Assembly (NCBI GenBank): GCA_017411405.1
Contig: JAFQQE010000009.1
Coordinates: forward strand, 1 to 36,570
Direction: 5' to 3'
Source of the DNA: Bacilli bacterium
GTDB taxonomy: Bacteria > Bacillota_I > Bacilli_A > RF39 > UBA660
DNA: 36,570 nucleotides
A program made the position numbers and the translations under genes. This document shows positions 1 through 32,706 of this stretch, one piece after another. Positions within the stretch are counted from its first letter, which is position 1. Every line of letters starts with the position of its first letter. Below the pieces are notes generated by a model. The model ran no database searches, had not been told where the DNA came from, and was given only the letters and a program-made list of their open reading frames with translations.

Positions 1-267
1 ACTAAGTAATCCTAAATCTATAGCAACAGACCATACTGATTCTCCGTTTATTAATACTCTATCGATTGCTTCTTGTTTTTCGAATATTGTATGAACTTTA
101 TTTTGTCTTGTTCGTAAAATATCATATCCATGCTTTTCTATTAATGCAGTTAAATAATTAATAACGCATTTTCTTACCTTATATTTACTTGATAGACTTC
201 CTATTGATATTCCTTCCTTTTTCTTATTATATATATTAATTTTATCTTCATAACTTAATTTACTCAT
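1..267 (-). CDS. IS3-family transposase OrfA, cut by window edge
   Basis: The minus strand reads an open frame from an ATG at 267 to the window edge (89 codons, beginning MSKLSYEDKINIYNKKKEGI). It continues with an SLSSKYKV-type helix-turn-helix, and later the GESVWSVAIDLGL segment typical of IS3/IS150-group OrfA proteins, which bind the IS ends and are frameshifted to OrfB to give the full transposase. It lies directly inside an IS3-like end at 291-309. The rest of the element is outside the window, so whether it is intact cannot be judged. The family call rests on recognition of the N-terminal HTH pattern. Confidence 0.72.
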   Translation of the reverse strand, partial: MSKLSYEDKINIYNKKKEGISIGSLSSKYKVRKCVINYLTALIEKHGYDILRTRQNKVHTIFEKQEAIDRVLINGESVWSVAIDLGLLS

Positions 268-8006: not shown

Positions 8007-8022
8007 CGGAAGGAGAAAAGAA

Positions 8023-15520: not shown

Positions 15521-15525
15521 TTCAT

Positions 15526-17595: not shown

Positions 17596-17596
17596 A

Positions 17597-17618
17597 AAAG
17601 TATGGAATGCCATACTTT
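17597..17618. terminator. Bidirectional terminator between recG and the C39-like gene
   Basis: AAAGTATGG (17597-17605) and CCATACTTT (17610-17618) form a nine-pair stem on a four-base loop. T runs follow on both strands (better on the minus strand). It overlaps the stop codon of the convergent gene. The core stem AGTATGG/CCATACT recurs at 18619-18637. Confidence 0.75.
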
Positions 17619-18554: not shown

Positions 18555-18612
18555 AACAAAAACACCCTAATCATATAAATATTATATCATGTCTATCATA
18601 TTAATTAAATAT

Positions 18613-18637
18613 AAAAAAAGTATGGATAAACCATACT
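18613..18637 (-). terminator. Minus-strand intrinsic terminator
   Basis: CCATACT and AGTATGG (18619-18625 with 18631-18637) form a seven-pair stem on a five-base loop, followed on the minus strand by seven T (18619-18613). It insulates the C39-like pair from the restriction-modification operon. The 18638-18754 stretch between the two terminators shows nothing I can identify. Confidence 0.65.
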
Positions 18638-18754
18638 ATGAACCTATACTATTATATCTTTTTAAACCAACTTTAAAAGAATATAAACACGGTATTAAAT
18701 ATATAAATATTAATAATAGAACTATTTAGTCTCTTCAGGTTGTGTTGTTAGTTG

Positions 18755-18782
18755 AAAAAAAAGAACGTTTCTACATGTTCTT
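18755..18782 (-). terminator. Terminator of the restriction-modification operon
   Basis: On the minus strand AAGAAC (18782-18777) and GTTCTT (18766-18761) enclose a ten-base loop and are followed by eight T (18762-18755). The stem begins in the methyltransferase stop codon. Confidence 0.7.
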
Positions 18783-19872: not shown

Positions 19873-19883
19873 AGCATTTTCCT

Positions 19884-20684
19884 TTAAATTGAAAATAAAA
19901 ATTCTCTTAATAAAAGTGAAGATATTATTATTTGGTTTGGATGATTCATTAAATAAGTGTATAATTTATTATTTCCTTTTATAAATAACACACCATCCAT
20001 TATTGCTATAGATACAACTTCATTATCTACTTTTTTATTAACAAAATCAGATTGCATTGTTCTAACCGCATCATCAAATTGAGCATTTTGATGCCCACCA
20101 AAATCTGTTAAAAATTTTGCTTCTGCAATAATATATTTATTATTAAACTTAGCTATAAAATCAATACCTTTTTCCCTTTCAAACCCTAAATACCTTTTAG
20201 CAAAATTTTTCATTTCAGCATCTGATACATTATAAATACAATTTTCCTGGCAATTTAAAAAATCAGATTCATTTTTATAAACTGGCACTCCTAAAACACC
20301 CTTATCAACCCATTGTTTAAACATTGGCCCAATTTGACGATTAGTCTCTTTTGGTTCTGTACATTTTTCAATAATTTCATCAAAACCCATTTGAAATAAA
20401 TTACCTGCAATTCTATTAATAGTTTGTGGATTTCTTTCTATCGAACTCCTATCTCTTTTCAAATAAGCAACATAAGAATCTTTAATAGGAAAAAGTTCTA
20501 AATCTAATAATTGTTTTACTAAATCTATATTATTTCCTGCAATAAAAGCATTTCTTATATTTTCTTCTTTATCTTTAGATATTTCTCTTCTCAAATTTGG
20601 AGTAATTGGATATACTTTATATAATTCATCCAAATAATTTCTTTGAGATGCAAATTCAACACTTAATTTTGTCCAATAATTCAT
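19884..20684 (-). CDS. Type II restriction endonuclease (PD-(D/E)XK type)
   Basis: This 266-residue protein precedes the methyltransferase in the same operon and fits its cognate restriction enzyme. A PD-(D/E)XK-like core is visible: KGIDFIAKFNNKYIIAEAKFL with Asp175, Glu188 and Lys190. The N-terminal half (NPQTINRIAGNLFQMGF, EPKETNRQIGPMFKQW) resembles several annotated type II restriction enzymes, but I cannot name the prototype. An AGGAGG site precedes the ATG. The operon is minus-strand, endonuclease first, with no controller gene. It adjoins the integrative-element region. Confidence 0.78.
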   Translation of the reverse strand: MNYWTKLSVEFASQRNYLDELYKVYPITPNLRREISKDKEENIRNAFIAGNNIDLVKQLLDLELFPIKDSYVAYLKRDRSSIERNPQTINRIAGNLFQMGFDEIIEKCTEPKETNRQIGPMFKQWVDKGVLGVPVYKNESDFLNCQENCIYNVSDAEMKNFAKRYLGFEREKGIDFIAKFNNKYIIAEAKFLTDFGGHQNAQFDDAVRTMQSDFVNKKVDNEVVSIAIMDGVLFIKGNNKLYTYLMNHPNQIIISSLLLREFLFSI

Positions 20685-20833
20685 AGTATTACCTCCTATA
20701 TAATTATAACATATTTATAACATTATATTGTATTTAATAATAAATAATTGTAATTTTATTGATTATTTGTTATCATATAGAACCGTAAACTTAAATGTGT
20801 TTGTAAAAAAATAACATAAATTCATTTAATTTA

Positions 20834-20842
20834 TGCTATAAT
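20834..20842 (+). promoter_or_regulatory. Extended -10 promoter of the convergent small RNA
   Basis: TGCTATAAT (20834-20842) is a perfect extended -10. The -35 is poor, as is allowed for extended -10 promoters. Initiation would be near 20849. Confidence 0.6.
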
Positions 20843-20848
20843 ATTAAT

Positions 20849-20926
20849 ATAAGAATAGGAGATAGCGTAGAGAACTTCCTTCTGTTCTATTTAAGCAATG
20901 CCATTAACTAAGTTAATGGCTTTTTT
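20849..20926 (+). ncRNA. Candidate antisense small RNA facing the DUF1508 gene
   Basis: A perfect extended -10 starts an RNA of about 78 bases that ends at a strong terminator, GCCATTAAC (20900-20908) with GTTAATGGC (20912-20920), followed by six T. It ends exactly at the 3' end of the convergent DUF1508 gene. It has no start codon after its AGGAG. Its 5' part (20855-20887) repeats the 5' leader of the DUF1508 message almost exactly, including AACTTCCTTCTGTTC, the arm that masks the DUF1508 Shine-Dalgarno. It could thus base-pair with that Shine-Dalgarno in trans. Confidence 0.65.
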
Positions 20927-21098
20927 ATTTGTTATAAACAGGACAATTTGCCGAATACAACTTGATTAGATTTAATGCGTGAATGCAACTTTGTTTTGTT
21001 GTATACCCATCTCCGCTAGTAGCTAATATTTGGCCATTAGAACTAACGAATCTGAAGTAATAAAGGAAATTTCTTCCTAAAAAAACTTCTGCTCTCAT
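20925..21098 (-). CDS. Small DUF1508 (YegP-like) protein
   Basis: This short gene encodes 57 residues (from ATG 21098; an adjacent ATG at 21101 adds one Met). The core FRFVSSNGQILATS followed by DGYTTKQSCIHALNLIK matches one DUF1508/YegP repeat, a small alpha-beta unit usually found in tandem and of unknown function. The second ATG is favoured because it lies seven bases after a strong GGAGG (21110-21106), whereas the first is only four away. The leader hairpin at 21105-21134 buries this site. It is cytoplasmic with no membrane helix. The stop codon overlaps the T run of the convergent small RNA. Confidence 0.78.
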   Translation of the reverse strand: MRAEVFLGRNFLYYFRFVSSNGQILATSGDGYTTKQSCIHALNLIKLYSANCPVYNK

Positions 21099-21104
21099 CA
21101 TATC

Positions 21105-21134
21105 ACCTCCTTGTTCACGTGAACAAAAGGAAGT
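21105..21134 (-). promoter_or_regulatory. Hairpin sequestering the DUF1508 Shine-Dalgarno
   Basis: In the minus-strand RNA, ACUUCC (21134-21129) pairs with GGAGGU (21110-21105), and UUGUUC (21126-21121) pairs with GAACAA (21116-21111) around an ACGU loop, with a two-U bulge. The entire Shine-Dalgarno is in the stem. At DNA level TTGTTCACGTGAACAA (21111-21126) is also a perfect 16-base palindrome, so a protein operator is an alternative reading. Confidence 0.65.
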
Positions 21135-21152
21135 GTTCTATCTCCTATAAGC

Positions 21153-21161
21153 ATTATACCA
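21153..21161 (-). promoter_or_regulatory. Promoter of the DUF1508 gene
   Basis: On the minus strand TGGTATAAT (21161-21153) is a perfect extended -10. The transcript would start close to 21147 and open with ATAGGAGATAG, the same sequence that opens the convergent small RNA. Confidence 0.65.
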
Positions 21162-21297
21162 TATTTCATTGATAACTTCTAACAAAAAAATTAAAATTTC
21201 TATAAAATCAATCAAAACCTCCTGAAGAGAATAAAGATTGTCCTTTTTTCTATTTTACCCCAATATTTATAAGGGTTTATTTTTCTGTAAATTAAAA

Positions 21298-21447
21298 TTA
21301 GGTACGATTTAAACAATGAATTTTTATCTAACTCGTACCTAAATTGTACCTATTGCAACTGTAGTGTAACCACTAAAATCCTTATAAACCTTGATAATAC
21401 AAGGCATAAACAAAAAATGTGGACCATCTCTGGTCCACTTCAGGGGG
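21298..21447. repeat. Integrative-element end A: GTACCT arm repeats, TCCTTATAAAC and GAGA-loop hairpin
   Basis: TTAGGTACG (21298-21306) is inverted against CGTACCTAA (21334-21342), and a second GTACCT follows at 21346-21351. Then come TCCTTATAAAC (21379-21389), a small CCTTG/CAAGG stem (21389-21404), and an eight-pair hairpin GTGGACCA/TGGTCCAC (21419-21438) with TCTC loop (GAGA on the minus strand) followed by TTCAGGGGG (21439-21447). The same parts in the same order occur at 31986-32075 after the integrase gene. Element A thus looks like the right-hand end of a related integrated element that has lost its integrase. Confidence 0.6.
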
Positions 21448-21554
21448 AAAAATTAAAGGGCAATTCTATTACCTCGTAACCTCTTTTATTCCCTTAAAAT
21501 ACGTCATATTGCCATTTTATACACTTGCTTCACCATCCTAGAATTTGGAAAATT

Positions 21555-21582
21555 CGTAGATAAAAGTGTAGATAAAATTACA
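21555..21582. repeat. GTAGATAAA direct-repeat pair, copy 1
   Basis: Two GTAGATAAAA units begin at 21556 and 21568, followed by TTACA. A nearly identical pair occurs at 22808-22836 in the same orientation. Short spaced repeats of this kind are typical integrase arm-binding sites. The two copies bracket the DUF5655 gene. Confidence 0.55.
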
Positions 21583-21594
21583 TTTTAAAGAATC

Positions 21595-21617
21595 AAAAAA
21601 CTAGCTTCTTGCTAGTT
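21595..21617 (-). terminator. Terminator of the DUF5655 gene
   Basis: AACTAGC and GCTAGTT (21599-21605 with 21611-21617) form a seven-pair stem on a five-base loop, with six T following on the minus strand. The stem overlaps the stop codon. Confidence 0.75.
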
Positions 21618-22509
21618 ATTTTTTATTTACTTCTAATGATTGTTTTATTAAAGGAATTAGATTATCAATCATATCTATATTTGTAATATCTACACAATAA
21701 TCTCCATTACCATGATGACCACAATTAGATAAATCTATCGTAATATTTAATGGATCATTTAATGTTCCTTTCTTCATATTTATAAACATTGTTATTTTAC
21801 TTTTATAAAATTCTAAATCTATGATATTTCTAGAACCCTTAAATGCAATATACATTTTTTTAACATCTATATCAATATCATCTAATTCTAAAACTCTTTC
21901 TTTTAATTTTTCATATATATCTTTTATTAATTCTGATCTATGATTTAAATGATCTTCTTCCGTATATACTTTTACTTCCCTAGTCACTTGATCTGTAAAG
22001 CTTTCAACTTTTATTTCTTCTATTTTAGTATTACTAACTTTTTGAATTAATTCAACATCTATAATATTGTCTTCATATTTAGATACTTTATATAAATCGA
22101 TTGGAATATTTTTAAAATCAGTCGCATTTAATTGGTACGGTGTAAATACTGGTGATACGAATATAATTCTTGATTGACTCCAATCTATATCATTAATCAT
22201 TAATTGTTTACTAGTCTTTTCATTATATTTAAGTACAAAATCTGCTTTTCTTTCTAACAATAATTTTAAATATGTATATCCTTGATCAACCAAACTATGA
22301 TTTTTAACATTTTTATACTCAACAATCTTAAATGATTTTGTTTCTTCATCAAATGCTAAAGTATCTATTCTAAAACTACCAACTGTAAATTCAGTTTCTA
22401 TAAAATCATATCCTATTATTTCTTTAATATTTTTTTCAAAGTATGTTTGTAATTCTTTTTCATTTTTAAAATCTTCTTGTTTTAATTTTCTATTATTTTT
22501 AAGAATCAT
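21616..22509 (-). CDS. PD-(D/E)XK nuclease-like protein with DUF5655 C-terminal domain
   Basis: This 297-residue protein has an N-terminal endonuclease-like fold: ETEFTVGSFRIDTLAFDEETKSFKIVEYKN supplies Glu40, Asp49, Glu64 and Lys66 of a PD-(D/E)XK site. The C-terminal region (about 180-297: SELIKDIYEKLKERVLELDDIDIDVKKMYIAFK..NIIDLEFYKSKITMFINMKKGTLNDP) matches the DUF5655 domain. Such proteins are common, uncharacterised companions of restriction systems and mobile elements. It has its own terminator and sits between two GTAGATAAA repeat pairs, like a cassette. A defence role is inference from context. Confidence 0.75.
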   Translation of the reverse strand: MILKNNRKLKQEDFKNEKELQTYFEKNIKEIIGYDFIETEFTVGSFRIDTLAFDEETKSFKIVEYKNVKNHSLVDQGYTYLKLLLERKADFVLKYNEKTSKQLMINDIDWSQSRIIFVSPVFTPYQLNATDFKNIPIDLYKVSKYEDNIIDVELIQKVSNTKIEEIKVESFTDQVTREVKVYTEEDHLNHRSELIKDIYEKLKERVLELDDIDIDVKKMYIAFKGSRNIIDLEFYKSKITMFINMKKGTLNDPLNITIDLSNCGHHGNGDYCVDITNIDMIDNLIPLIKQSLEVNKK

Positions 22510-22807
22510 ATTAAAATACCTCCGAACTTCTAATATTATTATAACATATTTTTATCGTTTCTTTCTAATTTCAATTAACAATTTAATTACATTTTTAGTA
22601 TCGTGCTACTTCAAGGGGCAACCAAAATTTAATTTTTTTATTCATGAACCCAGATAAATAAAGGGTTTTAATTTTTAGAATTATCGAAAAATCCCCTTAA
22701 ACTACTTAGTAAAATGCATTTTTAAATTTTAAGGGCTCTAATATGAAGTTTTCCTAGGTTTTATAAAGATTTGCGAGATTTTGGGTTTAAAAATTTAGGT
22801 CAAAAAA
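22510..22807. other. Non-coding stretch upstream of the DUF5655 gene, degenerate element-end copy
   Basis: I see no gene here. A short stem TAGTA/TGCTA (22596-22608) followed by CTTCAAGGGG resembles a decayed version of the hairpin plus TTCAGGGGG module found at three other sites. The rest is A/T-rich with several short inverted repeats, and it should contain the DUF5655 promoter. Confidence 0.35.
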
Positions 22808-22836
22808 GTGTAGATAAATTGTAGATAAAATTACAC
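22808..22836. repeat. GTAGATAAA direct-repeat pair, copy 2
   Basis: Units start at 22810 and 22821 and are followed by ATTACAC. The pair matches copy 1 (21555-21582) across about 26 bases with few differences and has the same orientation, about 1.25 kb apart. Confidence 0.55.
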
Positions 22837-22871
22837 TTTGGGCTACTTCAATCTTCGCAAGCCCTTGATTT

Positions 22872-22919
22872 TCCTTAGAAAAACAAAAATGCTAGGTCTC
22901 TCGACCTAGCTTCAGGGGG
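22872..22919. repeat. Element end B: GAGA-loop hairpin with TTCAGGGGG
   Basis: TCCTTAGAAAAAC (22872-22884) is followed by GCTAGGTC/GACCTAGC (22891-22898 with 22903-22910) on a TCTC loop and then TTCAGGGGG (22911-22919). Compared with copies A and C the loop and 3' flank are identical while both stem arms differ in a compensating way, the sign of a conserved structure. On the minus strand it reads as a terminator with GAGA tetraloop and a T-rich tail. This is the probable left boundary of the CBASS-carrying element. Confidence 0.55.
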
Positions 22920-23036
22920 CCAAAATCTTTCATATATGAAATAAATTATTGCTAATTAAATCCTTATATTTTAAGCAATTATAGATTAAGTCTAATTATA
23001 AAAATTTATATAATTTTAAGAGTTTTTAGTGATTGA

Positions 23037-23054
23037 GTACCTAAATGGGTACCT
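23037..23054. repeat. Left-arm GTACCT repeat pair
   Basis: GTACCTAAATGGGTACCT places two GTACCT units 12 bases apart. The right-end copy is GTACCTATTTGGGTACCT with the same spacing. They are probable integrase arm-type binding sites. Confidence 0.6.
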
Positions 23055-23107
23055 AAAATTAAAAACAATACTACTAATATTCTTCACAAAAGAAAGGATT
23101 TGAAATT

Positions 23108-23470
23108 ATGAAAATAAATTATAAAAAATATGGAGATTATTACTTACCTGATTTAGCACTTGTTGAAAAAGAAAATAAACAATTAAATAAATATGGATTA
23201 TTAAGATTAGAATATTTAAGGTATCATAAGAAAGCATTATATCAAGAATTACTAATGAAAGATAAATTAAACGAACATCTTTTTTCAGTAAGTATAGAAG
23301 CAGAAAATAAACTTAACTATTTAATAAATGAACTAATAGAATTTGATGGTACTATTACTGAAAAATTAAAAGCTAAAAATCAAATGTTATGGATTCAAAA
23401 AATGAATACTTGTAAAAACATTGCTGAAGATATAGTTTTAAGAGAAATTGTATATGGAGATGAAATATGA
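23108..23470 (+). CDS. TnpV-like transposon-encoded protein
   Basis: This 120-residue protein matches the TnpV pattern seen in clostridial transposons and mobilisable elements: INYKKYGDYYLPDL, LNKYGLLRLEYLRYHKKALYQELLMKDKLNEHL, and C-terminal MLWIQKMNTCKNIAEDIVLREIVYG. The molecular role of TnpV is not established. AAAGAAAGGA precedes the ATG. Its TGA overlaps the next ATG (ATGA), so the two are coupled. Confidence 0.82.
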   Translation: MKINYKKYGDYYLPDLALVEKENKQLNKYGLLRLEYLRYHKKALYQELLMKDKLNEHLFSVSIEAENKLNYLINELIEFDGTITEKLKAKNQMLWIQKMNTCKNIAEDIVLREIVYGDEI

Positions 23471-23784
23471 TTAAAGGTAAAGAAGATATAACTGATAAAG
23501 AATTTGAAGAAATATTATTACCGTTCTATAACAATTATAACGAATATCTTATTAACTTTGTCATACCTGATACAATAGCATTTTATCTAGCAAATGGACA
23601 TAGTAGAAATTGTTTATCAGATTGTCCACTTCGTAATCATATTAACTCTGCAATAGATGTATTTAATGTTAAATGCGATATTAATAAGTTAATACCACAA
23701 ATAGAACTGATTTTAAGAATAAAATACAATTTAAAAATAATAAGTAAAAACAAATTAGCATTTAAAAATTGGGAGAACGATTAA
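23467..23784 (+). CDS. Unknown small element-encoded protein
   Basis: I do not recognise this 105-residue protein. It is acidic in the N-terminal third, and has a cysteine pair in HSRNCLSDCPLRNHINSAIDVF that could bind a metal or be structural. There is no signal peptide or membrane helix. It is translationally coupled to tnpV by a four-base overlap and is followed by the oriT-like region, so a role in element maintenance or mobilisation is likely but unproven. Confidence 0.6.
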   Translation: MIKGKEDITDKEFEEILLPFYNNYNEYLINFVIPDTIAFYLANGHSRNCLSDCPLRNHINSAIDVFNVKCDINKLIPQIELILRIKYNLKIISKNKLAFKNWEND

Positions 23785-23849
23785 GTTTTTATGCATTAGC
23801 CAGCACTGCATTTGTTCTCCTCCCAAATGCTTTTATGGGAAATCCCATA
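23771..23849. other. oriT-like cluster of inverted repeats upstream of mobC
   Basis: Three inverted repeats are packed here: GGAGAAC/GTTCTCC (23772-23778 with 23814-23820), GCATTTG/CAAATGC (23808-23814 with 23824-23830) and TATGGGA/TCCCATA (23834-23840 with 23843-23849). They are followed by CCCTCT and the mobC start. Origins of transfer typically lie just upstream of mobC in small mobilisable elements. There is no T run after these stems that would make them ordinary terminators. The nic site cannot be assigned. Confidence 0.45.
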
Positions 23850-23878
23850 CCCTCTAAAAAAAGAAAGGAATGATTATA

Positions 23879-24226
23879 TTGAGAAAAAGAAATTGGAAAT
23901 TAAATGTATATTTAAGTCACGAAGAAAGAGATAGATTAATGGAATTATCTTCAAAAGTTGGACTACCTTATGCTGTTGTAATAAGAGAATTAATAATGAG
24001 CTTTGAGCCAAAAGAAAAGCCACCTGCCGAGTTTTATGAATTACTTAATTATGTTAGAAGAACAGGAAATATTTTAAATCAAATAGCTACTAAAATGCAT
24101 TATTGGGGTTATGTTGAAGATGTTAATTTTTTAAGAAAAACTGTTAATAATCTTCAACAATTAGTTATAGATATTAGAGAACATTATTTACTTGCTGAAA
24201 AAAAAGATAAAGACAATGTGATTTAG
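23879..24226 (+). CDS. MobC-like relaxosome accessory protein
   Basis: MobC proteins bind oriT and assist the relaxase in plasmid or element mobilisation. This 115-residue protein has an N-terminal ribbon-helix-helix-like region (RKRNWKLNVYLSHEERDRLMELSSKVGLPYAVVIRELIM) and the C-terminal signature LNYVRRTGNILNQIATKMHYWG of MobC. The TTG at 23879 is preferred: the upstream in-frame ATG at 23870 touches the AAAGGA Shine-Dalgarno, while TTG gives nine-base spacing and the usual MRKRN start. No relaxase follows; the next gene is convergent CBASS cargo. Confidence 0.8.
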   Translation: MRKRNWKLNVYLSHEERDRLMELSSKVGLPYAVVIRELIMSFEPKEKPPAEFYELLNYVRRTGNILNQIATKMHYWGYVEDVNFLRKTVNNLQQLVIDIREHYLLAEKKDKDNVI

Positions 24227-24236
24227 CATTGTCTTT
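24209..24236. terminator. Bidirectional terminator between mobC and the CBASS operon
   Basis: AAAGACAATG (24209-24218) and CATTGTCTTT (24227-24236) form a ten-pair stem on an eight-base loop, with T on both sides. It overlaps the mobC stop and abuts the CD-NTase stop. Confidence 0.75.
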
Positions 24237-25585
24237 TAAACTATTTTAACATTAAATCTTTTTATAGCTACACATTCATTATCTTTAATTAAATAACATT
24301 CTACGTAATGATTCCCTTCAAAATTTATTTTTTCAAATCTACAATCACTACTTATGTCATCTTCATAATTGTGTAGATGATTTCCATAATGGAGATCGCC
24401 TCTTAACATATTTTTTTCGATAGCTTTACTTCCATTATTCCTTACTTTCCATAATACTGTATATGGTTTAGAAATGTTTGTTTCAATCGTAAAACAAATT
24501 TGTTCATCTTTGTTTTCAATCAAAGAAAATGGTTGATCATCAAAACAATTTATTTGTGTGCACCTATTAAAATTATCTTTAGATACATATCTTTGGCATT
24601 TCAATTCTAATTTGACTGGACATATTGCAAATGGATACAAATTTCCAATAAACATTTCATTATCTTCGCAAACATTTCTAGCTTCCTTAGTTTCATTATT
24701 AAAGTAATCTGTTTTAAAGAAACTATTCCATGCATTATATATTTCATCAATATTTTCGTTTTTATATGCAGTATTTAACTTTTCTACAAACATACTTAAT
24801 TTTTCAAATAAATTATTTAATTTTTCTTTATGTTCATCACTCGTGATTAACTCTTGACCATTAACAGGATTACATACAGATTTATTATAATTAATTCGGT
24901 CTATTAATTTATTAATTATGTCCAACAAAAGTTTATCTAAATTTATATTTATATCAATATTTGATAGTTGTTCCTCTACTAAAACAGTAATAATAAGGCC
25001 ACCACAAACATTCCATTCTTTTCTAGTTTTAGCGAAATATTTTATAAGCCTAGTAATTTCTCTTAGTTTATTATCATATAAATGATTTTTTTCATAAAAC
25101 CAATTAGTTATACTTCTCGGATTTCTTTCAGTCCAAGATTCTCCACAATGTTCATAATATTCATTTTCCGTTCTATATATAGCAAAATCAATATGATAAT
25201 CGTCTTGGTATTCTATTCTTATACAATTTTTCTTTTTTGTTGGATTTTTCTTAAATAAATAATTATATGGTTTTAAAAATTCAATTATCAAATCCTTAAC
25301 ATCATCCGTATTGTTTGGAATATTAGACTTTTCAAATATTATTGCTACATCTATATCAAAGTCATCATATTCTGGATTGATTGCTGTTGACATGGCAATA
25401 CTACCTTGTTCAACAGAATCGTATAATTTATAACTCTTTTCATTTTCCTCATTATATTGTTTTATACCATCTTTTAATCTGTCTATATTTTTTCTTTTTT
25501 TATCTCTTATATCTTGAACTTTTTCACCTGGAAGGATAACTTTTTCATTATAAAAGTTATTCATTCTAGTTGTTACTTTTTCCAT
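24236..25585 (-). CDS. CBASS CD-NTase (cGAS/DncV-like nucleotidyltransferase) with AGS-C sensor domain
   Basis: CD-NTases make cyclic oligonucleotides on phage infection and so activate a CBASS effector. Numbering from the longer frame (ATG 25591), the nucleotidyltransferase core has GS at 63-64 and DID at 79-81 in DDFDIDVAIIF, with the third catalytic Asp135 in YHIDFAIY. The C-terminal part (about 325-451) is an AGS-C domain, with WKVRNNGSKA, RGDLHYG and EGNHYVECYLIKDNECVA. ATG 25585 is chosen because GGGGG lies six bases before it. The start overlaps the end of the SAVED gene by 20 bases, so the two are coupled. Confidence 0.9.
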   Translation of the reverse strand: MEKVTTRMNNFYNEKVILPGEKVQDIRDKKRKNIDRLKDGIKQYNEENEKSYKLYDSVEQGSIAMSTAINPEYDDFDIDVAIIFEKSNIPNNTDDVKDLIIEFLKPYNYLFKKNPTKKKNCIRIEYQDDYHIDFAIYRTENEYYEHCGESWTERNPRSITNWFYEKNHLYDNKLREITRLIKYFAKTRKEWNVCGGLIITVLVEEQLSNIDININLDKLLLDIINKLIDRINYNKSVCNPVNGQELITSDEHKEKLNNLFEKLSMFVEKLNTAYKNENIDEIYNAWNSFFKTDYFNNETKEARNVCEDNEMFIGNLYPFAICPVKLELKCQRYVSKDNFNRCTQINCFDDQPFSLIENKDEQICFTIETNISKPYTVLWKVRNNGSKAIEKNMLRGDLHYGNHLHNYEDDISSDCRFEKINFEGNHYVECYLIKDNECVAIKRFNVKIV

Positions 25586-26531
25586 CCACATCCCCCAATT
25601 CTACATATTTACCAACTGAATTACCACTAGCATATATTCCCCAATTGTATTTATATCGAGCAGTTCTTAAATAGTTGCACACTATTATATCTATAACTCT
25701 ATTTTTATTAATTTTCCTAAAAATTTCGAACATTAATGAACTCTGACAGGCACCTAATACATATATTTTTTCAGATGTAGTTTTAGAAATTTTATATATT
25801 TCATCAGCTATTTTTTCAGAATATGCCTCTAATTGTTTTTCACTAATTATTGCATTTGTTTTAGGTTTTTCCAATTGAAATCTATATAAATTACAATTTT
25901 TAAATTGTTCTAAATCCATTTCATTCATTATGCAAGTTGTCTCAATAGTAACTACAGCAATTTTACTATCTTTACATAATGAAGTATTTAACAATAACTT
26001 TGGTAACACCAATGCAGGGATGTAGTTTAAAGTTTTTATTTTGTCATTTTTTTGAAAATATTCATAGTGAGAGTATATCTTTTCTTTTCTATAAGCATTA
26101 CCTGCTAAGGCAATAAAAGGCAATGGTGCTATTCCAAAATATGAAACATTATAATCAGAATAATTTTTTAAACATTTATCAACATCGCCTATATAATCTG
26201 TTATTATATTTTTAGAATTTGTCTTTTTTAATTTTTTTACACTATCAATAATATTGATTATATTAGAATTTTTGAATTTTTTTGTGGATTTTATTGTATC
26301 CAGTCCTATTACAGCAAGTACTTTTTCTTTTTTTATGTCTAATATATGCAATCCAATGGCAACTATGATTAAAGCAATCCCACCCCAAAATGCTATGCTG
26401 GTATTTATTTCTTCATATGGTATATGTAAAAGGTTATAAAGTGCTTTTAATAATAAATCTGGAAGTGAAACCATTCCTGCACCAACTAAAGTCATCCCTA
26501 ACTCTAATAATTTTTTTATTTCTTTTTCCAT
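25566..26531 (-). CDS. CBASS effector: two-transmembrane SAVED protein (Cap14-like)
   Basis: SAVED domains bind the cyclic nucleotide made by the CD-NTase. This 321-residue protein has two N-terminal hydrophobic segments (about residues 9-35 and 44-64) and a SAVED domain from about 125 to 300, shown by VSYFGIAPLPFIALAGNAYRKE, HYEYFQ, and EKIYVLGACQSSLMFEIFRKI. The TM-SAVED arrangement fits Cap14 effectors, thought to damage the inner membrane on activation. GGGGG precedes the ATG. It lies 18 bases after the SDR gene and overlaps the CD-NTase start. No Cap2/Cap3 or HORMA/TRIP13 genes are present, so the system is of the minimal (type I) kind. Confidence 0.85.
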   Translation of the reverse strand: MEKEIKKLLELGMTLVGAGMVSLPDLLLKALYNLLHIPYEEINTSIAFWGGIALIIVAIGLHILDIKKEKVLAVIGLDTIKSTKKFKNSNIINIIDSVKKLKKTNSKNIITDYIGDVDKCLKNYSDYNVSYFGIAPLPFIALAGNAYRKEKIYSHYEYFQKNDKIKTLNYIPALVLPKLLLNTSLCKDSKIAVVTIETTCIMNEMDLEQFKNCNLYRFQLEKPKTNAIISEKQLEAYSEKIADEIYKISKTTSEKIYVLGACQSSLMFEIFRKINKNRVIDIIVCNYLRTARYKYNWGIYASGNSVGKYVELGDVDGKSNN

Positions 26532-26549
26532 GTAGCCCCCTTAAAATAT

Positions 26550-27230
26550 TTAATTGTTTATATTTTTAATTCCGACCTCAGGTATCATAACATCGCTTGG
26601 TGTATCTATAATAAATTGAATTAGTCTAGCAACTTCTTTTGTATCTAATCCATTTGACATATTCTTACTAATATTCATTTTATTAAACATATCCGTTTTC
26701 ATCATACCTGGCATTACATCAGTAACTCTTATTCCATATTTAGCTACTTCATCTTGTAGTGATTTTGAGAAACCTGTTACACCCCATTTAGAAGCATTGT
26801 ACACAACTCTTTCTGCTTTATGATTTATTCCAGCTTGTGAGTTAATATTAATGATTAAACCATCTTTATTTTCTTTCATAGATGGTATTACTGCTTTCGA
26901 AACATTTATTGTTCCGAGTAAATTAACTTCTATTACTGATTTAATTCTATCACTATCATTTGTATCTAATTCTTCTTGAATCCATAGTCCCGCATTATTT
27001 ATAAGAACATCAATTTTATTATATTCTTCTATGATTTCACTTATTGCTTTTTCCACCATTTTATAATTGCTTACATCACATACTTTGTAGAAACAATTAT
27101 TTTCTTCTGCAACAAATTTCATTTTTTCTTCATTTGTAGCAAGTATTATTACATTATTTCCCTTCGCTAATGTTTCAGTCAATGTTTTTCCTAAACCGTC
27201 ACTACCACCTGTAATTACTATTGTTTTCAT
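26550..27230 (-). CDS. Short-chain dehydrogenase/reductase
   Basis: This classical SDR of 226 residues uses NAD(P)H on an unknown alcohol or carbonyl substrate. Visible motifs are TGGSDGLG (7-14, cofactor loop), NNAG (78-81), catalytic Asn103, Ser131 and YNASK (Tyr144, Lys148). It is cytoplasmic. An AAGGAGG Shine-Dalgarno precedes the ATG. It lies ten bases after the methyltransferase gene and 18 bases before the SAVED gene in one minus-strand operon. Whether it serves CBASS or is unrelated cargo is unknown. Confidence 0.85.
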   Translation of the reverse strand: MKTIVITGGSDGLGKTLTETLAKGNNVIILATNEEKMKFVAEENNCFYKVCDVSNYKMVEKAISEIIEEYNKIDVLINNAGLWIQEELDTNDSDRIKSVIEVNLLGTINVSKAVIPSMKENKDGLIININSQAGINHKAERVVYNASKWGVTGFSKSLQDEVAKYGIRVTDVMPGMMKTDMFNKMNISKNMSNGLDTKEVARLIQFIIDTPSDVMIPEVGIKNINN

Positions 27231-27240
27231 TTTTTCCTCC

Positions 27241-27921
27241 TTATATTTTTTTCTTATTACTAGAAAGATCTAGTTTTTTACTATTACTTGATAATACTAT
27301 TAGTTTTCCATTTCCTAATTCAAACTCGTTAGGAGATTCTTCTTTTGCTAAATAATTAATTTCAAAACCATATTCATATAATAATTCTTGAATTTGTTCT
27401 GTTGAAAAATAATTCATATAAATATGAACACCAGGTCTATATGGTTCTTCTACCATCATTTCTCCTGTTCCTTCTTGTAAAATTAATAACAATTTCCCAT
27501 TGGGTTTTAGTATTCTTCTAAAAGATTCTAATGTTTTTGGTAATTCCTCAACTGGTATATGAAATAAAGAGCAATTTGAAATAATGCCATCATAACTATC
27601 TTCGGGATAAGTTATATCAGTAATATCCATTATTTCAAATTTTCCGTTTGGAACTTTTTCTTTAGCAATATTTAACATCCCAACTGATAAATCTATACCA
27701 TTTATATCAAATCCTTTTTCTGATATATATTTACAATCTTTACCGTTACCGCATCCAGCATCTAAAATTTTTATTCCTTCTAAACTTTCTAGAAAAGCGT
27801 CGATATATTTATTATCTGAAGCATCTTCAAAGAATTCCTCAGCATATTCTTTAGCTATGTCGTCATAATCATTTATTACACCTTTCTTTTTTTGTTCAGC
27901 TGTTAAATTATTCATACTCAT
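27241..27921 (-). CDS. Class I SAM-dependent methyltransferase
   Basis: This 226-residue small-molecule-type methyltransferase has the Rossmann motif I ILDAGCGNGKD (52-62), acidic motif II GIDLSVGML, and a motif IV-like YDGIISNCSLFHIP. The C-terminal part (FRRILKPNGKLLLILQEG) is typical of methyltransf_11/25 family members. The substrate is unknown. AGGAGG precedes the ATG. It is three bases downstream of the EEP gene and ten bases upstream of the SDR. Confidence 0.85.
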   Translation of the reverse strand: MSMNNLTAEQKKKGVINDYDDIAKEYAEEFFEDASDNKYIDAFLESLEGIKILDAGCGNGKDCKYISEKGFDINGIDLSVGMLNIAKEKVPNGKFEIMDITDITYPEDSYDGIISNCSLFHIPVEELPKTLESFRRILKPNGKLLLILQEGTGEMMVEEPYRPGVHIYMNYFSTEQIQELLYEYGFEINYLAKEESPNEFELGNGKLIVLSSNSKKLDLSSNKKKI

Positions 27922-27924
27922 ATT

Positions 27925-28713
27925 TTAATCCTCCTTTATATCAAAATCTAATAATAATGGTAAATGGTCTGAAATATCTGTATTAATAACTTTAAAACTA
28001 TTTACTTTAACTTTATCGTTAACAAATATATAATCACATACGATATTACCATTATCTAATCCATCATCAAAATTAGGTCTTGTTGATTTTATATCATATT
28101 TATCAATTAAGTTAATCAATTCATTATTTAATATTTTTATACTTTCTGTACTAGGTAATAAATTAAAGTCACCTACTACGATAACAGGAATATCTTTTCT
28201 TATTTTGCTTAATATAAATTTTGACTGATTTATTGTTCTTTCATCACCAATTTTATCTTTATTCCATATTCCATGAACGTTTATTATTTGAATTTCTTTA
28301 CCATCTATTTCTAATATTGCATTTTGTATAGATCTACACCAATCTTTTTCTCTAAAATATGTTGCATCATACTCATACTTATAATCGTTGTAATAGAATT
28401 GATTATAATGTTCTTTAATTTTATACTTTGATACAATTAATGAACCTTGTTCTGCTTTGCCACCAAAATCTCTAACTACAACATTATTTTTAGTAATACC
28501 GTCTGCTATAAATAGTGGAGCAAATTCATTGTATTTATATTCTTCTAATTTAACAATGTCGTTTTTAGATTTGAAGACCTCAAAGCAGCTATCATCAACC
28601 GCATTCATTGCTTCTTGAAATGTACAAATTTCTGCATTTTCACTTTTTATAAAATCTAATACTTGTTTAGTATTATCTAATTTAATACCTACATTTAAAT
28701 CTAGTAATTTCAT
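27925..28713 (-). CDS. Endonuclease/exonuclease/phosphatase (EEP) family protein
   Basis: EEP enzymes are Mg2+-dependent phosphodiesterases or phosphatases acting on DNA, RNA, nucleotides or phospholipids. This 262-residue protein keeps the family signatures: LNVG near the start, Gln33-Glu34 (metal ligand), NVHG (His147), GDFN (Asp182, Asn184), a CDYIF motif (Asp227) and SDHLPL (Asp249, His250). There is no signal peptide, so it acts in the cytoplasm. It is the first gene of the minus-strand cargo operon, four genes upstream of the CD-NTase. Degradation of cyclic nucleotides or nucleic acids would fit, but the substrate cannot be read from sequence. Confidence 0.84.
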   Translation of the reverse strand: MKLLDLNVGIKLDNTKQVLDFIKSENAEICTFQEAMNAVDDSCFEVFKSKNDIVKLEEYKYNEFAPLFIADGITKNNVVVRDFGGKAEQGSLIVSKYKIKEHYNQFYYNDYKYEYDATYFREKDWCRSIQNAILEIDGKEIQIINVHGIWNKDKIGDERTINQSKFILSKIRKDIPVIVVGDFNLLPSTESIKILNNELINLIDKYDIKSTRPNFDDGLDNGNIVCDYIFVNDKVKVNSFKVINTDISDHLPLLLDFDIKED

Positions 28714-28807
28714 ATTTCTTTCCTTTCTTTAATAAGGGTTTGGGATAGTTTCCACGATAGAATTTCGTACAGGAGTAGAAATTCATTGCTTGCTAGACAA
28801 TAACTTT

Positions 28808-28869
28808 ATGACAGAGTGACAAAAGTACGAGAGCCACATGCAGTATCTATATAGATGTCATACTGTCAT
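28808..28869. promoter_or_regulatory. Long inverted repeat with inner palindrome upstream of the cargo operon
   Basis: ATGACAGAGTGACA (28808-28821) is inverted against TGTCATACTGTCAT (28856-28869) with 12 of 14 bases matching, and the perfect palindrome ATCTATATAGAT (28845-28856) lies inside. A further stem GAATTTC/GAAATTC is found nearer the EEP start. The segment between the XRE gene and the EEP gene (28714-28887) must contain the cargo promoter, but I could not pick a convincing -35/-10 pair. Operator for the XRE regulator or single-strand structure of the element are both possible. Confidence 0.4.
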
Positions 28870-28887
28870 TACTTACTGAAAAAAACA

Positions 28888-29403
28888 TTAACCTATATCA
28901 TTTACGTTTTCTATATTTGACTCTAGACCATCAATATCTTCCATAAACGATTCTATATAACCTTCAAATACTTCATCAACTTTTTTCTTTTCAGCCGGTG
29001 TTAAATTTTTATATTCTTCATAATTTTTAAACTCTTTTTTCTTAATAAATTCAACCATAATTTTTCTTGCACATACATCATATTTAAATGCATCAATGAA
29101 TTTATTAATTAACTCTCCAGCCATAGTAGAAGTATCAATATTTTCCTTATTAATAATTTTATTAGAAATTATATTAAACTCGCTTTCATCATAATTTGCT
29201 AATTTCATTAATTCATCTAAAGATAAATCAAGAATAAGTGCTAACTTTCTTAAAGAGAGAACATTAGGTTTCTTTCTTTCACCTTTTTCTATTTTAGCAA
29301 GAGTATTATTATCAATACCTGTTCTTCTAGAAAGTTCTCTTTGAGATATTCCTAATTTTTCTCTAGCATCTTTAACAACGCTAGCCAAAGTTTTATCTTT
29401 CAT
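28888..29403 (-). CDS. XRE-family transcriptional regulator of the element
   Basis: The 171-residue protein has an N-terminal HTH_3 domain: LASVVKDAREKLGISQRELSRRTGIDNNTLAKIEKGERKKP then LRKLALILDLSLDELMKLA. The C-terminal half is helical, charged and of unknown role. The ATG at 29403 is chosen as AGAGGTG lies before it; a longer frame from 29463 would overlap the operator region. It is divergent from the DUF3173-RepA-integrase genes, with two inverted repeats in between, so it probably represses integration and replication genes. Immunity-type control as in phages and ICEs is inferred. Confidence 0.84.
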   Translation of the reverse strand: MKDKTLASVVKDAREKLGISQRELSRRTGIDNNTLAKIEKGERKKPNVLSLRKLALILDLSLDELMKLANYDESEFNIISNKIINKENIDTSTMAGELINKFIDAFKYDVCARKIMVEFIKKKEFKNYEEYKNLTPAEKKKVDEVFEGYIESFMEDIDGLESNIENVNDIG

Positions 29404-29460
29404 CAAACTACACCTCTTTTTGTTTTCTATATCCATTTTACCATAAATATGATTATTCAA

Positions 29461-29545
29461 CAATATTTTTGTGAGTTTTAATCACAAAAATATTGACATA
29501 AATTATTTCTATATGATAATATATAGTTGTGAGCATAACTCACAA
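29461..29545. promoter_or_regulatory. Paired operators and promoter in the XRE/DUF3173 divergent region
   Basis: Operator 1 is a perfect 14-base inverted repeat, CAATATTTTTGTGA (29461-29474) against TCACAAAAATATTG (29482-29495). Operator 2 is TTGTGAG/CTCACAA (29527-29533 with 29539-29545). Both share TTGTGA/TCACAA half sites. Between them a plus-strand promoter reads TTGACA (29493-29498), 16 bases, GATAAT (29515-29520), its -35 overlapping operator 1 and its start site lying in operator 2. This is a typical repressor switch. Confidence 0.7.
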
Positions 29546-29636
29546 TATAATTTCTTTCTTTAGTTGGTAATCGTATACATAGATAAAAGGTTATCATTTT
29601 TATCTAGAGTTTAAACGAAAGGAGGAACAATTTTAT

Positions 29637-29873
29637 ATGAACGCTAGAGAAACTTTAAAATTAATTAGCAAGCAATGGTGTGATATAAATGATTTGATGA
29701 AGCTTGCAGAGATTGGTAAGAATAATGCTGTTAAGTTAAGACGCGAAATAAAAGATGAACTTATACTTAAAGGCTACACTCTACCAAACAACAGATTACC
29801 AATGATTGAAGTCGTTAATAAATTAAAAATAAATATTAATTATTTAGAAAAGATGGCTAAAGAAAATTTATAG
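29637..29873 (+). CDS. DUF3173-like small DNA-binding protein (possible excisionase or regulator)
   Basis: This 78-residue basic helical protein resembles DUF3173 proteins encoded next to integrases of streptococcal and other Firmicute integrative elements: ISKQWCDINDLMKLAEIGKNNAVKLRREIKDELILKGY, then LPNNRLPMIEVVNKLKI. The position directly before the RepA-like and integrase genes suggests a recombination-directionality or replication role. AAAGGAGG precedes the ATG at 11 bases. It is controlled by the operator pair upstream. Confidence 0.65.
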   Translation: MNARETLKLISKQWCDINDLMKLAEIGKNNAVKLRREIKDELILKGYTLPNNRLPMIEVVNKLKININYLEKMAKENL

Positions 29874-29885
29874 GAAGGAAATTAT

Positions 29886-30875
29886 ATGAAAACAATTGAA
29901 GAATTAAAATGTAGTATTGTCGATATTAATTATATTATTGAAGATATGATTAGAGAAAATGGTTTATATTGTTTACTTGGAGAGGCTAAAGTTGGTAAAT
30001 CTGCGATTGCTCTTCAAATAGCAAACTCTGTTGCTAATGGATTTCCTTTTTTAAATTTAAAGACTAATAAAACTCCTGTTTTATATTTAAGTACAGAAAT
30101 GAATCCATCAGAGACTATTAGTAGAATCAAGTTTATGGAATTAAGTTTAAATAATAAGGATTTCTTTTATACTTTTCCTGAAGATAATTTAACTCAAATA
30201 AGTATCTTAAAAGTTGAAAAAGAAATTGCAGAATTTAGTGAAAAATATAATGGTAAATTAGTATTTATTGATATGTTTAATGGAATTAATTTTGGTAATA
30301 ATTATGATTTAAATAATTATCAAGATATGAGTCAAAATATATTTCCACAATTAAGAAAACTTTGTAATAACTATAATGTTGCTATTATTATAGTTCATCA
30401 TTTAAATCGTAAAGGTAAATCTTTAGGAAGTACTGCTATTGACACTTGTGTAGATGGTAAAATTGCTTTAAAACAAGATGAGAATATTAAATCTACTTTC
30501 TACTTAAAGTATGAAAGCAGAGATTACCCTAGTAAAGATTACGTACTGAAAAGAAATGAAAACTTAATACTTAAAATTGATAACTTTACTGATGAAGTAT
30601 GGAATGAAAACATTATGACTTTCTTTAGATATTCAATTAATATGAAAGAATTTACTTTTACTGCATCTGATATGGTTAGTAAATTAAAATTAAATGTTAT
30701 TCCATCAACTTTCGGTAAGTTACTTGCAAATCATAAAGAAGAACTAGAAAGAAATGGTCTTGTAATAGAAAGTAAACGAACTGCAACAGAAAGATTATAT
30801 ACTGCTAAATATAAGGAACCTTTAGAATTTGATAGCGATGATTTAGATTCAAAGGAGGAATACTATGGCAGTTAA
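29886..30875 (+). CDS. RepA-like RecA-fold ATPase
   Basis: This 329-residue AAA_25-type protein (hexameric RepA helicase family) probably supports element replication or stabilisation. Walker A is GEAKVGKS (32-39), Walker B is LVFIDM with Asp129, and a conserved VHHLNRKGKSLGSTAI sensor segment follows. A C-terminal winged-helix-like part begins about residue 255. AGGAAGG precedes the ATG, 12 bases after the previous gene. Its 3' end overlaps the integrase start by 11 bases, indicating coupled translation. Confidence 0.8.
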   Translation: MKTIEELKCSIVDINYIIEDMIRENGLYCLLGEAKVGKSAIALQIANSVANGFPFLNLKTNKTPVLYLSTEMNPSETISRIKFMELSLNNKDFFYTFPEDNLTQISILKVEKEIAEFSEKYNGKLVFIDMFNGINFGNNYDLNNYQDMSQNIFPQLRKLCNNYNVAIIIVHHLNRKGKSLGSTAIDTCVDGKIALKQDENIKSTFYLKYESRDYPSKDYVLKRNENLILKIDNFTDEVWNENIMTFFRYSINMKEFTFTASDMVSKLKLNVIPSTFGKLLANHKEELERNGLVIESKRTATERLYTAKYKEPLEFDSDDLDSKEEYYGS

Positions 30876-31980
30876 ACTATTAGATAAATCAGAATGGACA
30901 AAAGATGGCCGTAAATGGATATTTTATGACTATGTAAATAATTTAGATGGAACAAGAAGAAAATATAAGTCAAAGAAGTTTTTCACTAAAACAGAGGCTT
31001 TAAATGCAGAAAGAGAGTTTCTAACTCTTAATACAGAAAGAGCTGATAATAATCGTAATATGACTTTTAAAGATTTATACACTTTGTTCTATGCTTATAA
31101 AGAAGATAAAGTTAAATTTACTACTTTAAAAACTTATAGAGATAGACAAAAGTTCTTTAAAAATTTAGAGAATGTAAAATTAAAAGATTTTAATATAGAA
31201 CATTTTGAGAAATGGAAGAAAGAAATTAATACTTATGGTTATTCAACTAATCATAAAAATCATATATTTAAATTCTTTAAAGAATTATTAAACTATGCTA
31301 GCAAATGGTATAACTTTAACTTTACTACTACTTACAATAAAATGACTAATTTTACTAATCCAAATGAAATGCCTAAAGAAATGTTATTCTTTACTTACGA
31401 AGAATTTAAAAGTTTTATATCTGTAGAAGAAGATATTTTATATAAGACAATGTATGAAACTTTATATTATTGTGGTCTTCGTAGAGGTGAACTAAGAGGT
31501 CTTACTTGGAATGATATAGATTTTGGTAATAGTTATTTAAGAGTTAATAAAAATGTAGTTGCTACTCAAGGTGATGAAAATAAACCTTATATGGTAACTA
31601 CACCTAAAACAAAATCTAGTATAAGAGAAATACCTATACCTAAAGTATTACTTGGTGATTTAAAAGAATTATATAAAGTTTGCGAAAAACATTACGGATT
31701 TAATAATAAGTGGTATGTATTTGGAGATACTGATCCAATTACTAGCGGTAGAATTAGGAGTCGTAAAAATAGAAATTGTAAACTAGCAGGAGTTAAACAA
31801 ATAAGAATTCACGATTTTAGACATAGTTGTGCATCATTACTAATCAATAGTAATGCAAGTATAAATGTAGTTGCAAAATATCTAGGGCATACAAAAATAG
31901 ATGAGACATTAAATACTTATTCCCATCTATTTAAAAATAAAATGAATGAAATTATAGACATTATCGACAAACTAAATTAA
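30865..31980 (+). CDS. int: Tyrosine integrase of the element
   Basis: This 371-residue phage/Tn916-type integrase catalyses integration and excision. An N-terminal arm-binding domain (about 1-60) and a SAM-like core-binding domain (about 65-150) precede the catalytic domain with Arg206 (YYCGLRRGELRGL), His316 and Arg319 (HDFRHSCASLL), His342 (LGHTKID) and nucleophile Tyr352 (TLNTYSHLF). All catalytic residues are present, so it should be active. AAAGGAGG precedes the ATG inside the RepA-like gene. The stop is followed at once by arm repeats and the right end module, the usual arrangement. Confidence 0.95.
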   Translation: MAVKLLDKSEWTKDGRKWIFYDYVNNLDGTRRKYKSKKFFTKTEALNAEREFLTLNTERADNNRNMTFKDLYTLFYAYKEDKVKFTTLKTYRDRQKFFKNLENVKLKDFNIEHFEKWKKEINTYGYSTNHKNHIFKFFKELLNYASKWYNFNFTTTYNKMTNFTNPNEMPKEMLFFTYEEFKSFISVEEDILYKTMYETLYYCGLRRGELRGLTWNDIDFGNSYLRVNKNVVATQGDENKPYMVTTPKTKSSIREIPIPKVLLGDLKELYKVCEKHYGFNNKWYVFGDTDPITSGRIRSRKNRNCKLAGVKQIRIHDFRHSCASLLINSNASINVVAKYLGHTKIDETLNTYSHLFKNKMNEIIDIIDKLN

Positions 31981-31985
31981 AATAG

Positions 31986-32003
31986 GTACCTATTTGGGTA
32001 CCT
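31986..32003. repeat. Right-arm GTACCT repeat pair
   Basis: GTACCTATTTGGGTACCT lies six bases after the integrase stop, with the two GTACCT units 12 bases apart. It matches the left-arm pair at 23037-23054 except for the central bases. Confidence 0.6.
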
Positions 32004-32028
32004 GATACATATATGAAAAGGCTTGGAG

Positions 32029-32075
32029 TCCTTATAAACAAAGTATCCCAGCCTCTCGGCTGGGATTTCAGGGGG
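32029..32075. repeat. Element end C (right): TCCTTATAAAC plus GAGA-loop hairpin
   Basis: TCCTTATAAAC (32029-32039) is identical to the copy at 21379-21389. It is followed by ATCCCAGCC/GGCTGGGAT (32045-32053 with 32058-32066) on a TCTC loop and TTCAGGGGG (32067-32075). It is the presumed attR region and, on the minus strand, the 3' end of the candidate small RNA transcribed from 32174. Confidence 0.6.
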
Positions 32076-32139
32076 TTTTGGTTGATACACTAACTTTATA
32101 AAATCGTTAGTGATATCTGCATGATATAATATCATGCCT
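32040..32139 (-). ncRNA. Candidate three-hairpin small RNA at the integration site
   Basis: A strong minus-strand promoter (32174-32146) would start RNA near 32139. The RNA folds as GCATGAT/ATCATGC (32137-32119), then CACTAAC/GTTAGTG with flanking pairs (32117-32084), then an unpaired CAACCAAAACCCCCTGAA, and finally the GGCTGGGAT/ATCCCAGCC stem with GAGA loop and a U-rich tail. No reading frame fits it. The same plan (two hairpins, C-rich linker, GAGA terminator hairpin) can be drawn at end B. C-rich unpaired motifs in Gram-positive small RNAs often pair with Shine-Dalgarno sequences. Confidence 0.55.
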
Positions 32140-32145
32140 ATATTC

Positions 32146-32174
32146 ATTCTATAATTAAAATAATTTTTTGTCAA
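32146..32174 (-). promoter_or_regulatory. Minus-strand promoter of the candidate small RNA at end C
   Basis: On the minus strand TTGACA (32174-32169), exactly 17 bases and TAGAAT (32151-32146) form a near-consensus sigma-A promoter. It is divergent from the lipoprotein operon promoter. Confidence 0.65.
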
Positions 32175-32219
32175 TTAGATTTTTTAAATTTGTAAATAAT
32201 TTTATTTTATATATACTTG

Positions 32220-32228
32220 TGATATAAT
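32220..32228 (+). promoter_or_regulatory. Promoter of the lipoprotein-MBOAT-DHHW operon
   Basis: TGATATAAT (32220-32228) is a perfect extended -10, placed 20 bases before the lipoprotein ATG. The -35 region is weak. Confidence 0.55.
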
Positions 32229-32247
32229 TTTTTAGGAGGAATGAATT

Positions 32248-32706
32248 ATGAAAAAAATAATAAATTTATGCATAATAGGATTTATAAGTCTATTTGTTTT
32301 AACTGGATGTTCTAATAAAAATATAGAAGGTTCTTTAGAAGATTTAATGACTAAAGTATATGAAAATATTCCAGATGATGAAAAACCAATGATGTTATCT
32401 AACATAGAAGTTAACGAAGAAAATGTTGAATATTATTTAGGTGTTAAAGATATAAAAATTAAAGAAGCACTTGCTTCAGAATCTATGACAGGCTCTATAG
32501 CTCATTCTATAGTTTTATTAAGAGTAGCTAATACTAAAGACATCGAAGATATAAAAGTGAATATAAAAGAAAATATAAATCCAAGAAAATGGATATGTGT
32601 AGAAGCAGAAAATGTTATAGTAAAAAATAAAGGAGATTTAATAATCCTTATAATGACATCTAATGCTCTATCAGAAAAAATAGAAAACAATTTTGATAAT
32701 TTATAA
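32248..32706 (+). CDS. DUF4358-like lipoprotein
   Basis: This 152-residue protein has a lipoprotein signal peptide with lipobox LTGC (Cys21), so it is anchored to the outer face of the membrane. The mature part ends in a segment (HSIVLLRVANTKDIEDIKVNIKENI...VENVIVKNKGDLIILIMTSN style) that resembles DUF4358 proteins, which occur beside MBOAT and DHHW genes in Firmicutes. Function is unknown; a role in surface-polymer acylation follows from context. TAGGAGGA precedes the ATG. It is 35 bases upstream of the MBOAT gene. Confidence 0.7.
   Translation: MKKIINLCIIGFISLFVLTGCSNKNIEGSLEDLMTKVYENIPDDEKPMMLSNIEVNEENVEYYLGVKDIKIKEALASESMTGSIAHSIVLLRVANTKDIEDIKVNIKENINPRKWICVEAENVIVKNKGDLIILIMTSNALSEKIENNFDNL

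Follow-up and report, generated by a model that had tools for sequence, protein, structure and literature searches.

A small RNA gene beside recG as a probable docking site for arrays of defence modules in uncultured gut Bacilli

The sRNA1 gene and its chromosomal setting

We analysed a stretch of 36,570 nucleotides from a Bacilli bacterium, referred to here as the window. Towards its right end lies a candidate small RNA gene, which we call sRNA1, with an integrase gene running towards it and recG far to its left:

32146 to 32174, minus strand: sRNA1 promoter, TTGACA (32174-32169), 17 nt, TAGAAT (32151-32146), read from the sequence and conserved across loci
32119 to 32137, minus strand: sRNA1 hairpin 1, GCAUGAUA...UAUCAUGC, from fold and covariation
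32084 to 32117, minus strand: sRNA1 hairpin 2, from fold and covariation
32067 to 32083, minus strand: single-stranded C-rich linker of sRNA1, with the near-invariant ACCAAAACCCCCUGAA at 32067-32082, from locus alignments
32067 to 32075, minus strand: putative crossover core CCCCCTGAA, the last 9 nt of the linker, from locus comparison
32045 to 32066, minus strand: GAGA-loop terminator hairpin, apparently element-supplied, as near-identical terminators stand behind unrelated sRNA bodies
31990 to 32044, no strand assigned: element end with the CCTTATAAA motif and repeated GGTACC-type sites, candidate integrase arm sites by inferred role
30865 to 31980, plus strand: tyrosine integrase converging on sRNA1 (Pfam PF00589, E 2e-26; PDB match 'Int protein' 6emy)
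29886 to 30875, plus strand: AAA_25 (RepA-like) ATPase
29637 to 29873, plus strand: small protein, a possible excisionase from its position and recurrence
15610 to 17595, plus strand: recG (NCBIfam RecG)

Folding of sRNA1 from position 32140 gave -38.4 kcal/mol (z -7.2), and none of 200 shuffled sequences folded as low. An alignment of 90 sequences had 97.7% of its pair cells paired, compared to 71.0% after shuffling and 30-57% in slid alignments, and showed both-sided changes in all 20 modelled pairs; this alignment was fitted to the covariance model and therefore leans towards it, and a MAFFT alignment that preceded the model already had both-sided changes in 16 of the 20 pairs. The pattern TTGAC[AT]-(15..19)-TAnnnT occurred at the promoter place in 148 of 158 related loci, with a spacing of 17 in 138, whereas 0 of 580 control windows taken upstream contained it, so that the promoter is not a chance match. 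An earlier note on this DNA had described a near-consensus minus-strand promoter (TTGACA-17-TAGAAT), two hairpins, a C-rich linker and a GAGA terminator, and these parts were borne out. No Rfam 15 family matched sRNA1, or a second RNA described below (RNA2), at gathering or relaxed thresholds, and a search of the window for tRNA and tmRNA genes found none. An ordinary L31-Firmicutes ribosomal protein leader (Rfam RF03156) is present at 7985-8015 on the plus strand.

DNA searches detected the sRNA1 body in 61 of 145 family genomes, and also in congeners. With a covariance model built from 31 sequences, 212 of the 288 genomes searched in the order gave a match, in nearly every case a single one, and the matches listed all came from one family, which we take to be RF39-like uncultured gut Bacilli; Candidatus Caccenecus avistercoris is among its carriers. 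A class sample yielded sRNA1 in 38 of 54 family genomes and in one other genome (G442), and a phylum sample yielded none outside the one family. G442 is assigned to a different family, and its locus (L239), a contig with recG and sRNA1, may reflect mis-binning or transfer.

The usual chromosomal neighbour of sRNA1 is recG: it precedes the gene in 104 of 159 loci, for the most part by less than 240 nt. The earlier note had instead named a lipoprotein-MBOAT operon, and a search of four congeners did not turn up the lipoprotein. In the congeners G002, G003 and G004, sRNA1 comes after recG and in the same orientation, with a converging integrase in G004. In the window recG stands at the opposite end of the island, indicating an inversion of sRNA1 together with the island with respect to recG; in comparison with the congeners, the inverted stretch spans 17595-32248. 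Since the genomes are nearly all MAGs, some breaks and rearrangements, including this inversion, may be assembly effects.

Where host DNA ends and mobile DNA begins

Comparison of 93 loci by Mantel test showed that similarity of the sRNA1 body followed that of recG (r 0.26, with 0 of 500 permutations as high), and that of the downstream DNA did not (r 0.00, with 279 of 500 as high). In 63 pairs of loci whose recG C-termini were at least 85% identical, median identity was 0.90 for the sRNA1 body and 0.62 downstream, and the downstream DNA reached 0.9 in a single pair. Conversely, 100 locus pairs were at least 90% identical downstream yet less than 70% identical in the sRNA1 body. Many different terminators were found behind near-identical bodies, and unrelated bodies preceded near-identical terminators and flanks. 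As bodies track recG while downstream DNA does not, and as terminators and flanks are common to unrelated bodies, insertion probably takes place at CCCCCTGAA within the linker; the mismatch of body and terminator between loci assigns the stretch from promoter to core to the host and everything from the terminator onward to the insert. Judged from these comparisons, the terminator of sRNA1 is not host sequence, and each element brings its own.

Several genomes carry sRNA1 next to recG in contigs with no integrase gene within 2.5 kb downstream, and in genomes without a nearby integrase the sequence past the linker was unrelated. In 14 of 38 loci the contig broke off no more than 350 nt to the 3' side of the motif, and in 2 of 38 it did so on the 5' side. 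The earlier note had proposed that the element targets the 3' end of an unnamed chromosomal small RNA gene, and that genomes lacking the element should be inspected. The promoter, hairpins and linker indeed persist beside recG where no integrase lies within 2.5 kb, and the targeting of such a gene, whose body tracks recG and is absent from Rfam, stood after corrections. Integration would affect the 3' part of the gene, though not the end of the terminator, since the insertion appears to lie inside the linker at the core. The GAGA terminator had been counted as part of the small RNA gene, a view contradicted by the occurrence of the same terminators behind unrelated bodies.

It is extremely unlikely that promoter, hairpins and linker belong to the end of the mobile element and travel with it: they directly adjoin the integrase in the window, but body similarity tracks recG and downstream similarity does not, no sRNA body precedes the cores inside arrays, and sRNA1 stands beside recG in the integrase-free contigs described above. 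A role of the structure as a leader or attenuator acting in cis on downstream genes is also very improbable. An intrinsic terminator at its end would suit an attenuator, but the genes downstream vary by locus, which makes a leader unlikely, and in the window and in G004 the next gene is an antisense integrase. The results favour a stand-alone small RNA encoded by the host, with its own promoter, its transcription being deduced from the sequence; this forms part of the overall explanation given below.

Relatives of the integrase, always antisense to sRNA1, were found 105-325 nt downstream of the core in 38 loci. A site-specific recombinase gene (Phage_integrase) is thus present on the element in these 38 loci, though many modules are without one. 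Only 10 of 30 integrase loci fetched from the family sample had a core and terminator at the 3' end, suggesting that this integrase family also uses other sites. A TCCTTATAAAC motif lies just past the GAGA terminator, from 32029, and related short repeats occur near other element ends. The small protein at 29637-29873 had no Pfam or NCBIfam match and recurs beside integrases.

We propose that CCCCCTGAA in the linker serves as the attachment core for tyrosine integrases. A circular element carrying the identical 9 bp would recombine there with the host core, by a crossover whose chemistry we infer, while promoter, hairpins and linker stay in place. The element's terminator hairpin would then sit directly after the core, rebuilding sRNA1 with a new terminator, and the displaced core and old terminator would mark the far end of the insert.

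A second RNA and a possible role of the linker

A further candidate RNA gene lies on the other side of recG:

15425 to 15554, minus strand: RNA2, upstream of recG, with TTGACA (15554-15549), 17 nt and TAGTAT (15531-15526)

RNA2 sits between a POR gene and recG, and comprises two hairpins, a strongly conserved C-rich linker CAACCCCUUUUUAUUCUUU and a terminator with the loop UCAGGGGG (opposite 15438-15445). In the class sample, 49 of the 54 genomes that belong to the family carried it and no other genome did. At two loci, L354 (G075) and L048 (G097), sRNA1 adjoins RNA2 with no recG between them.

The terminator loop of RNA2 is complementary to the core of sRNA1. Among 40 loci with both RNAs, 31 have UCAGGGGG as the loop sequence, one of the other nine (L196) ending at a contig end before the terminator; the same sequence is present in 22 of 30 loci from the class search, a set that includes the window and some genomes already counted. 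The duplex of UCAGGGGG with the sRNA1 linker was calculated at about -17 to -19 kcal/mol, compared to shuffled means of -5.5 to -9, in energies that leave out the cost of opening the RNA2 terminator hairpin. Two exceptions were seen: L045 has a normal sRNA1 core and no complementary RNA2 loop, and L354 has its core changed to CCCCCTGTG and an RNA2 loop without UCAGGGGG. The frequency of the loop and the duplex energy make regulatory pairing of sRNA1 with RNA2 a reasonable proposal. Pairing of the linker with the RNA2 terminator loop is the most likely mechanism for sRNA1, and we put it forward tentatively, at somewhat less than even odds.

The earlier note had likened the C-rich linker to Shine-Dalgarno-binding motifs known from Gram-positive regulatory RNAs. 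On such a reading, sRNA1 would act on mRNAs in the manner of RsaE/RoxS. The architecture and the single-stranded C-rich linker fit such a role, but the pattern AGGGGGTTN{1,9}ATG had 0 matches in the genome analysed and, in relatives, was not clearly commoner than its reversed control, and 15-nt complementary sites in the genus showed no clear excess either; these searches covered long perfect or near-perfect sites, short seeds being outside their scope. Both RNAs fell below the Rfam threshold for RsaE/RoxS (RF01820, gathering score 79), with no match for sRNA1 and 17.5 bits for RNA2, and sRNA1 reached 18.9 bits (E 2.7) against csRNA (RF02379, gathering score 57). Shine-Dalgarno binding is therefore an unlikely function of the linker.

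Module arrays at the probable docking site and comparison with known systems

Three sites with a core followed by a terminator, at 32067, 22911 and 21439, divide the island in the window:

24236 to 26531, minus strand: CBASS-like pair of a DncV-like cyclase and a SAVED effector with predicted 2TM
23870 to 24226, plus strand: NikA-like mobilisation protein
22911 to 22919, minus strand: second core CCCCCTGAA, then terminator hairpin GCTAGGTCGAGAGACCTAGC, 35.5 bits
22610 to 22618, minus strand: degenerate core CCCCTTGAA, within a non-coding end of ~320 nt common to L137, from sequence comparison
21616 to 22509, minus strand: PDC-S18 / DUF5655 gene, sole gene of a 1.47-kb module
21439 to 21447, minus strand: third core CCCCCTGAA, then terminator hairpin GTGGACCAGAGATGGTCCAC, 29.9 bits
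18781 to 20684, minus strand: Type II restriction-modification system of an N6/N4 methylase and a Tsp45I-like endonuclease

The first module holds the integrase, the AAA ATPase, a regulator, the CBASS-like pair and the NikA-like protein; the second, of 1.47 kb, has PDC-S18 as its single gene and no integrase; and the region past the third core carries the Tsp45I-like restriction system. A weak sRNA1-like match with ATCAATCAAAACCTCCTGAA (21150-21254, plus strand, 25 bits) may be a remnant or due to chance.

Across loci, the modules bounded by tandemly recurring cores measured 0.2–11 kb; many had no integrase, and defence genes were frequent among their cargo. In the loci compared, the sRNA strand downstream of sRNA1 had 15 cores with a terminator behind them, and 0 were present upstream or on the other strand; where they close an insert, such copies (22911 and 21439 in the window) represent the displaced attachment fragment. 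Twelve of the 13 closed modules, in twelve loci examined, were without an integrase, and those outside the window encoded HinP1I-like and NgoFVII-like restriction-modification systems, AbiEii, YhcG, Fic and DUF3800 proteins. Among the 89 loci that extend for 1.2 kb or more past sRNA1, no integrase was detectable in 61; some of these are empty sites, some hold integrase-less modules, and others may carry other integrases. At L204 two cores stand 244 bp apart, with a gene-less interval between the attachment sites. Among 14 pattern matches in IMG/VR, only L226 was a clear sRNA1 (65.7 bits, the others at most 32 bits); this contig carries sRNA1, a related integrase and phage-like genes, and is probably a prophage arm at the sRNA1 site. 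Phage and plasmid collections gave no match.

Newer insertions at the same core would build an array that reads outward from sRNA1, newest first; the members of such arrays comprise elements that carry an integrase, short modules without one and at least one probable prophage. An integrase supplied in trans probably mobilised the short modules that share a non-coding end. Alternatively, they may be decayed remnants at an ordinary gene-restoring hotspot, a real possibility that falls a little short of an even chance. The L204 interval and the degenerate core in the window fit decay, and short closed modules are easier to see because most loci end at 8 kb, but nearly all the closed modules lack an integrase and often hold intact, complete systems, and the second module of the window and L137 have the ~320-nt non-coding end in common with different cargo. 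Taken together, the gene, its conservation, the boundary between host and mobile DNA and the arrays were established by sequence comparison, and we give a probability of about 0.85 to the whole explanation of an sRNA1 gene with CCCCCTGAA as its attachment core, a terminator supplied by the element and repeated insertions that produce arrays.

The analysis adds an RNA family outside Rfam 15 and a second conserved RNA beside recG, and points to an exactly placed hotspot for defence genes on the chromosomes of uncultured gut Bacilli. The exchange of terminators is a simple sequence signature by which defence modules can be excised exactly from MAGs, and it raises the testable question whether integrase-less modules of 0.2-5 kb move in trans. 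It is also conceivable, though rather unlikely, that the sRNA gene is the fixed anchor of a cassette platform, on which integrases shuffle integrase-less modules, and that the core doubles as the RNA2 pairing site. In that case the pairing role would keep the docking site conserved, and each shuffled defence module would bring core and terminator, the integrases coming from some members of the array.

Islander-type islands in tRNA and tmRNA genes (PMC4383910) likewise have a tyrosine integrase, an attB inside an RNA gene, a restored 3' part, a displaced fragment at the far end and tandem arrays. Unlike in those islands, the target here is an unlisted small RNA, and the restored part is any terminator and not a copy of the host 3' end, so that the 3' hairpin of sRNA1 would change with each insertion. 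In Salmonella enterica, sRNA genes make up 17% of prophage integration sites (as cited in PMC5502288); an sRNA gene is the target there too, although taxon and RNA differ and the present site serves integrase-bearing elements, the probable prophage L226 and integrase-less modules. Integrons resemble the present arrays in their tyrosine recombinase, short modules and cargo genes mostly in one orientation, in a comparison of sites confined to core and terminator hairpin; unlike in integrons, integrases here ride on some of the modules, and the window integrase scored 44.3 bits against the integron integrase model (NCBIfam TIGR02249, cut-off 265). RsaE/RoxS, csRNA and similar C-rich sRNAs of Gram-positive bacteria share hairpins, an unpaired C-rich stretch and an intrinsic terminator with sRNA1, which differs from them in having neither an Rfam match at threshold nor target enrichment. 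Among the results listed from the literature searched, which included few subscription papers, none described the sRNA1 docking site. An sRNA gene as an integration site is already known; the unlisted RNA, the exchange of terminators and the arrays of short defence modules, as read from these genomes, give it a new form here.
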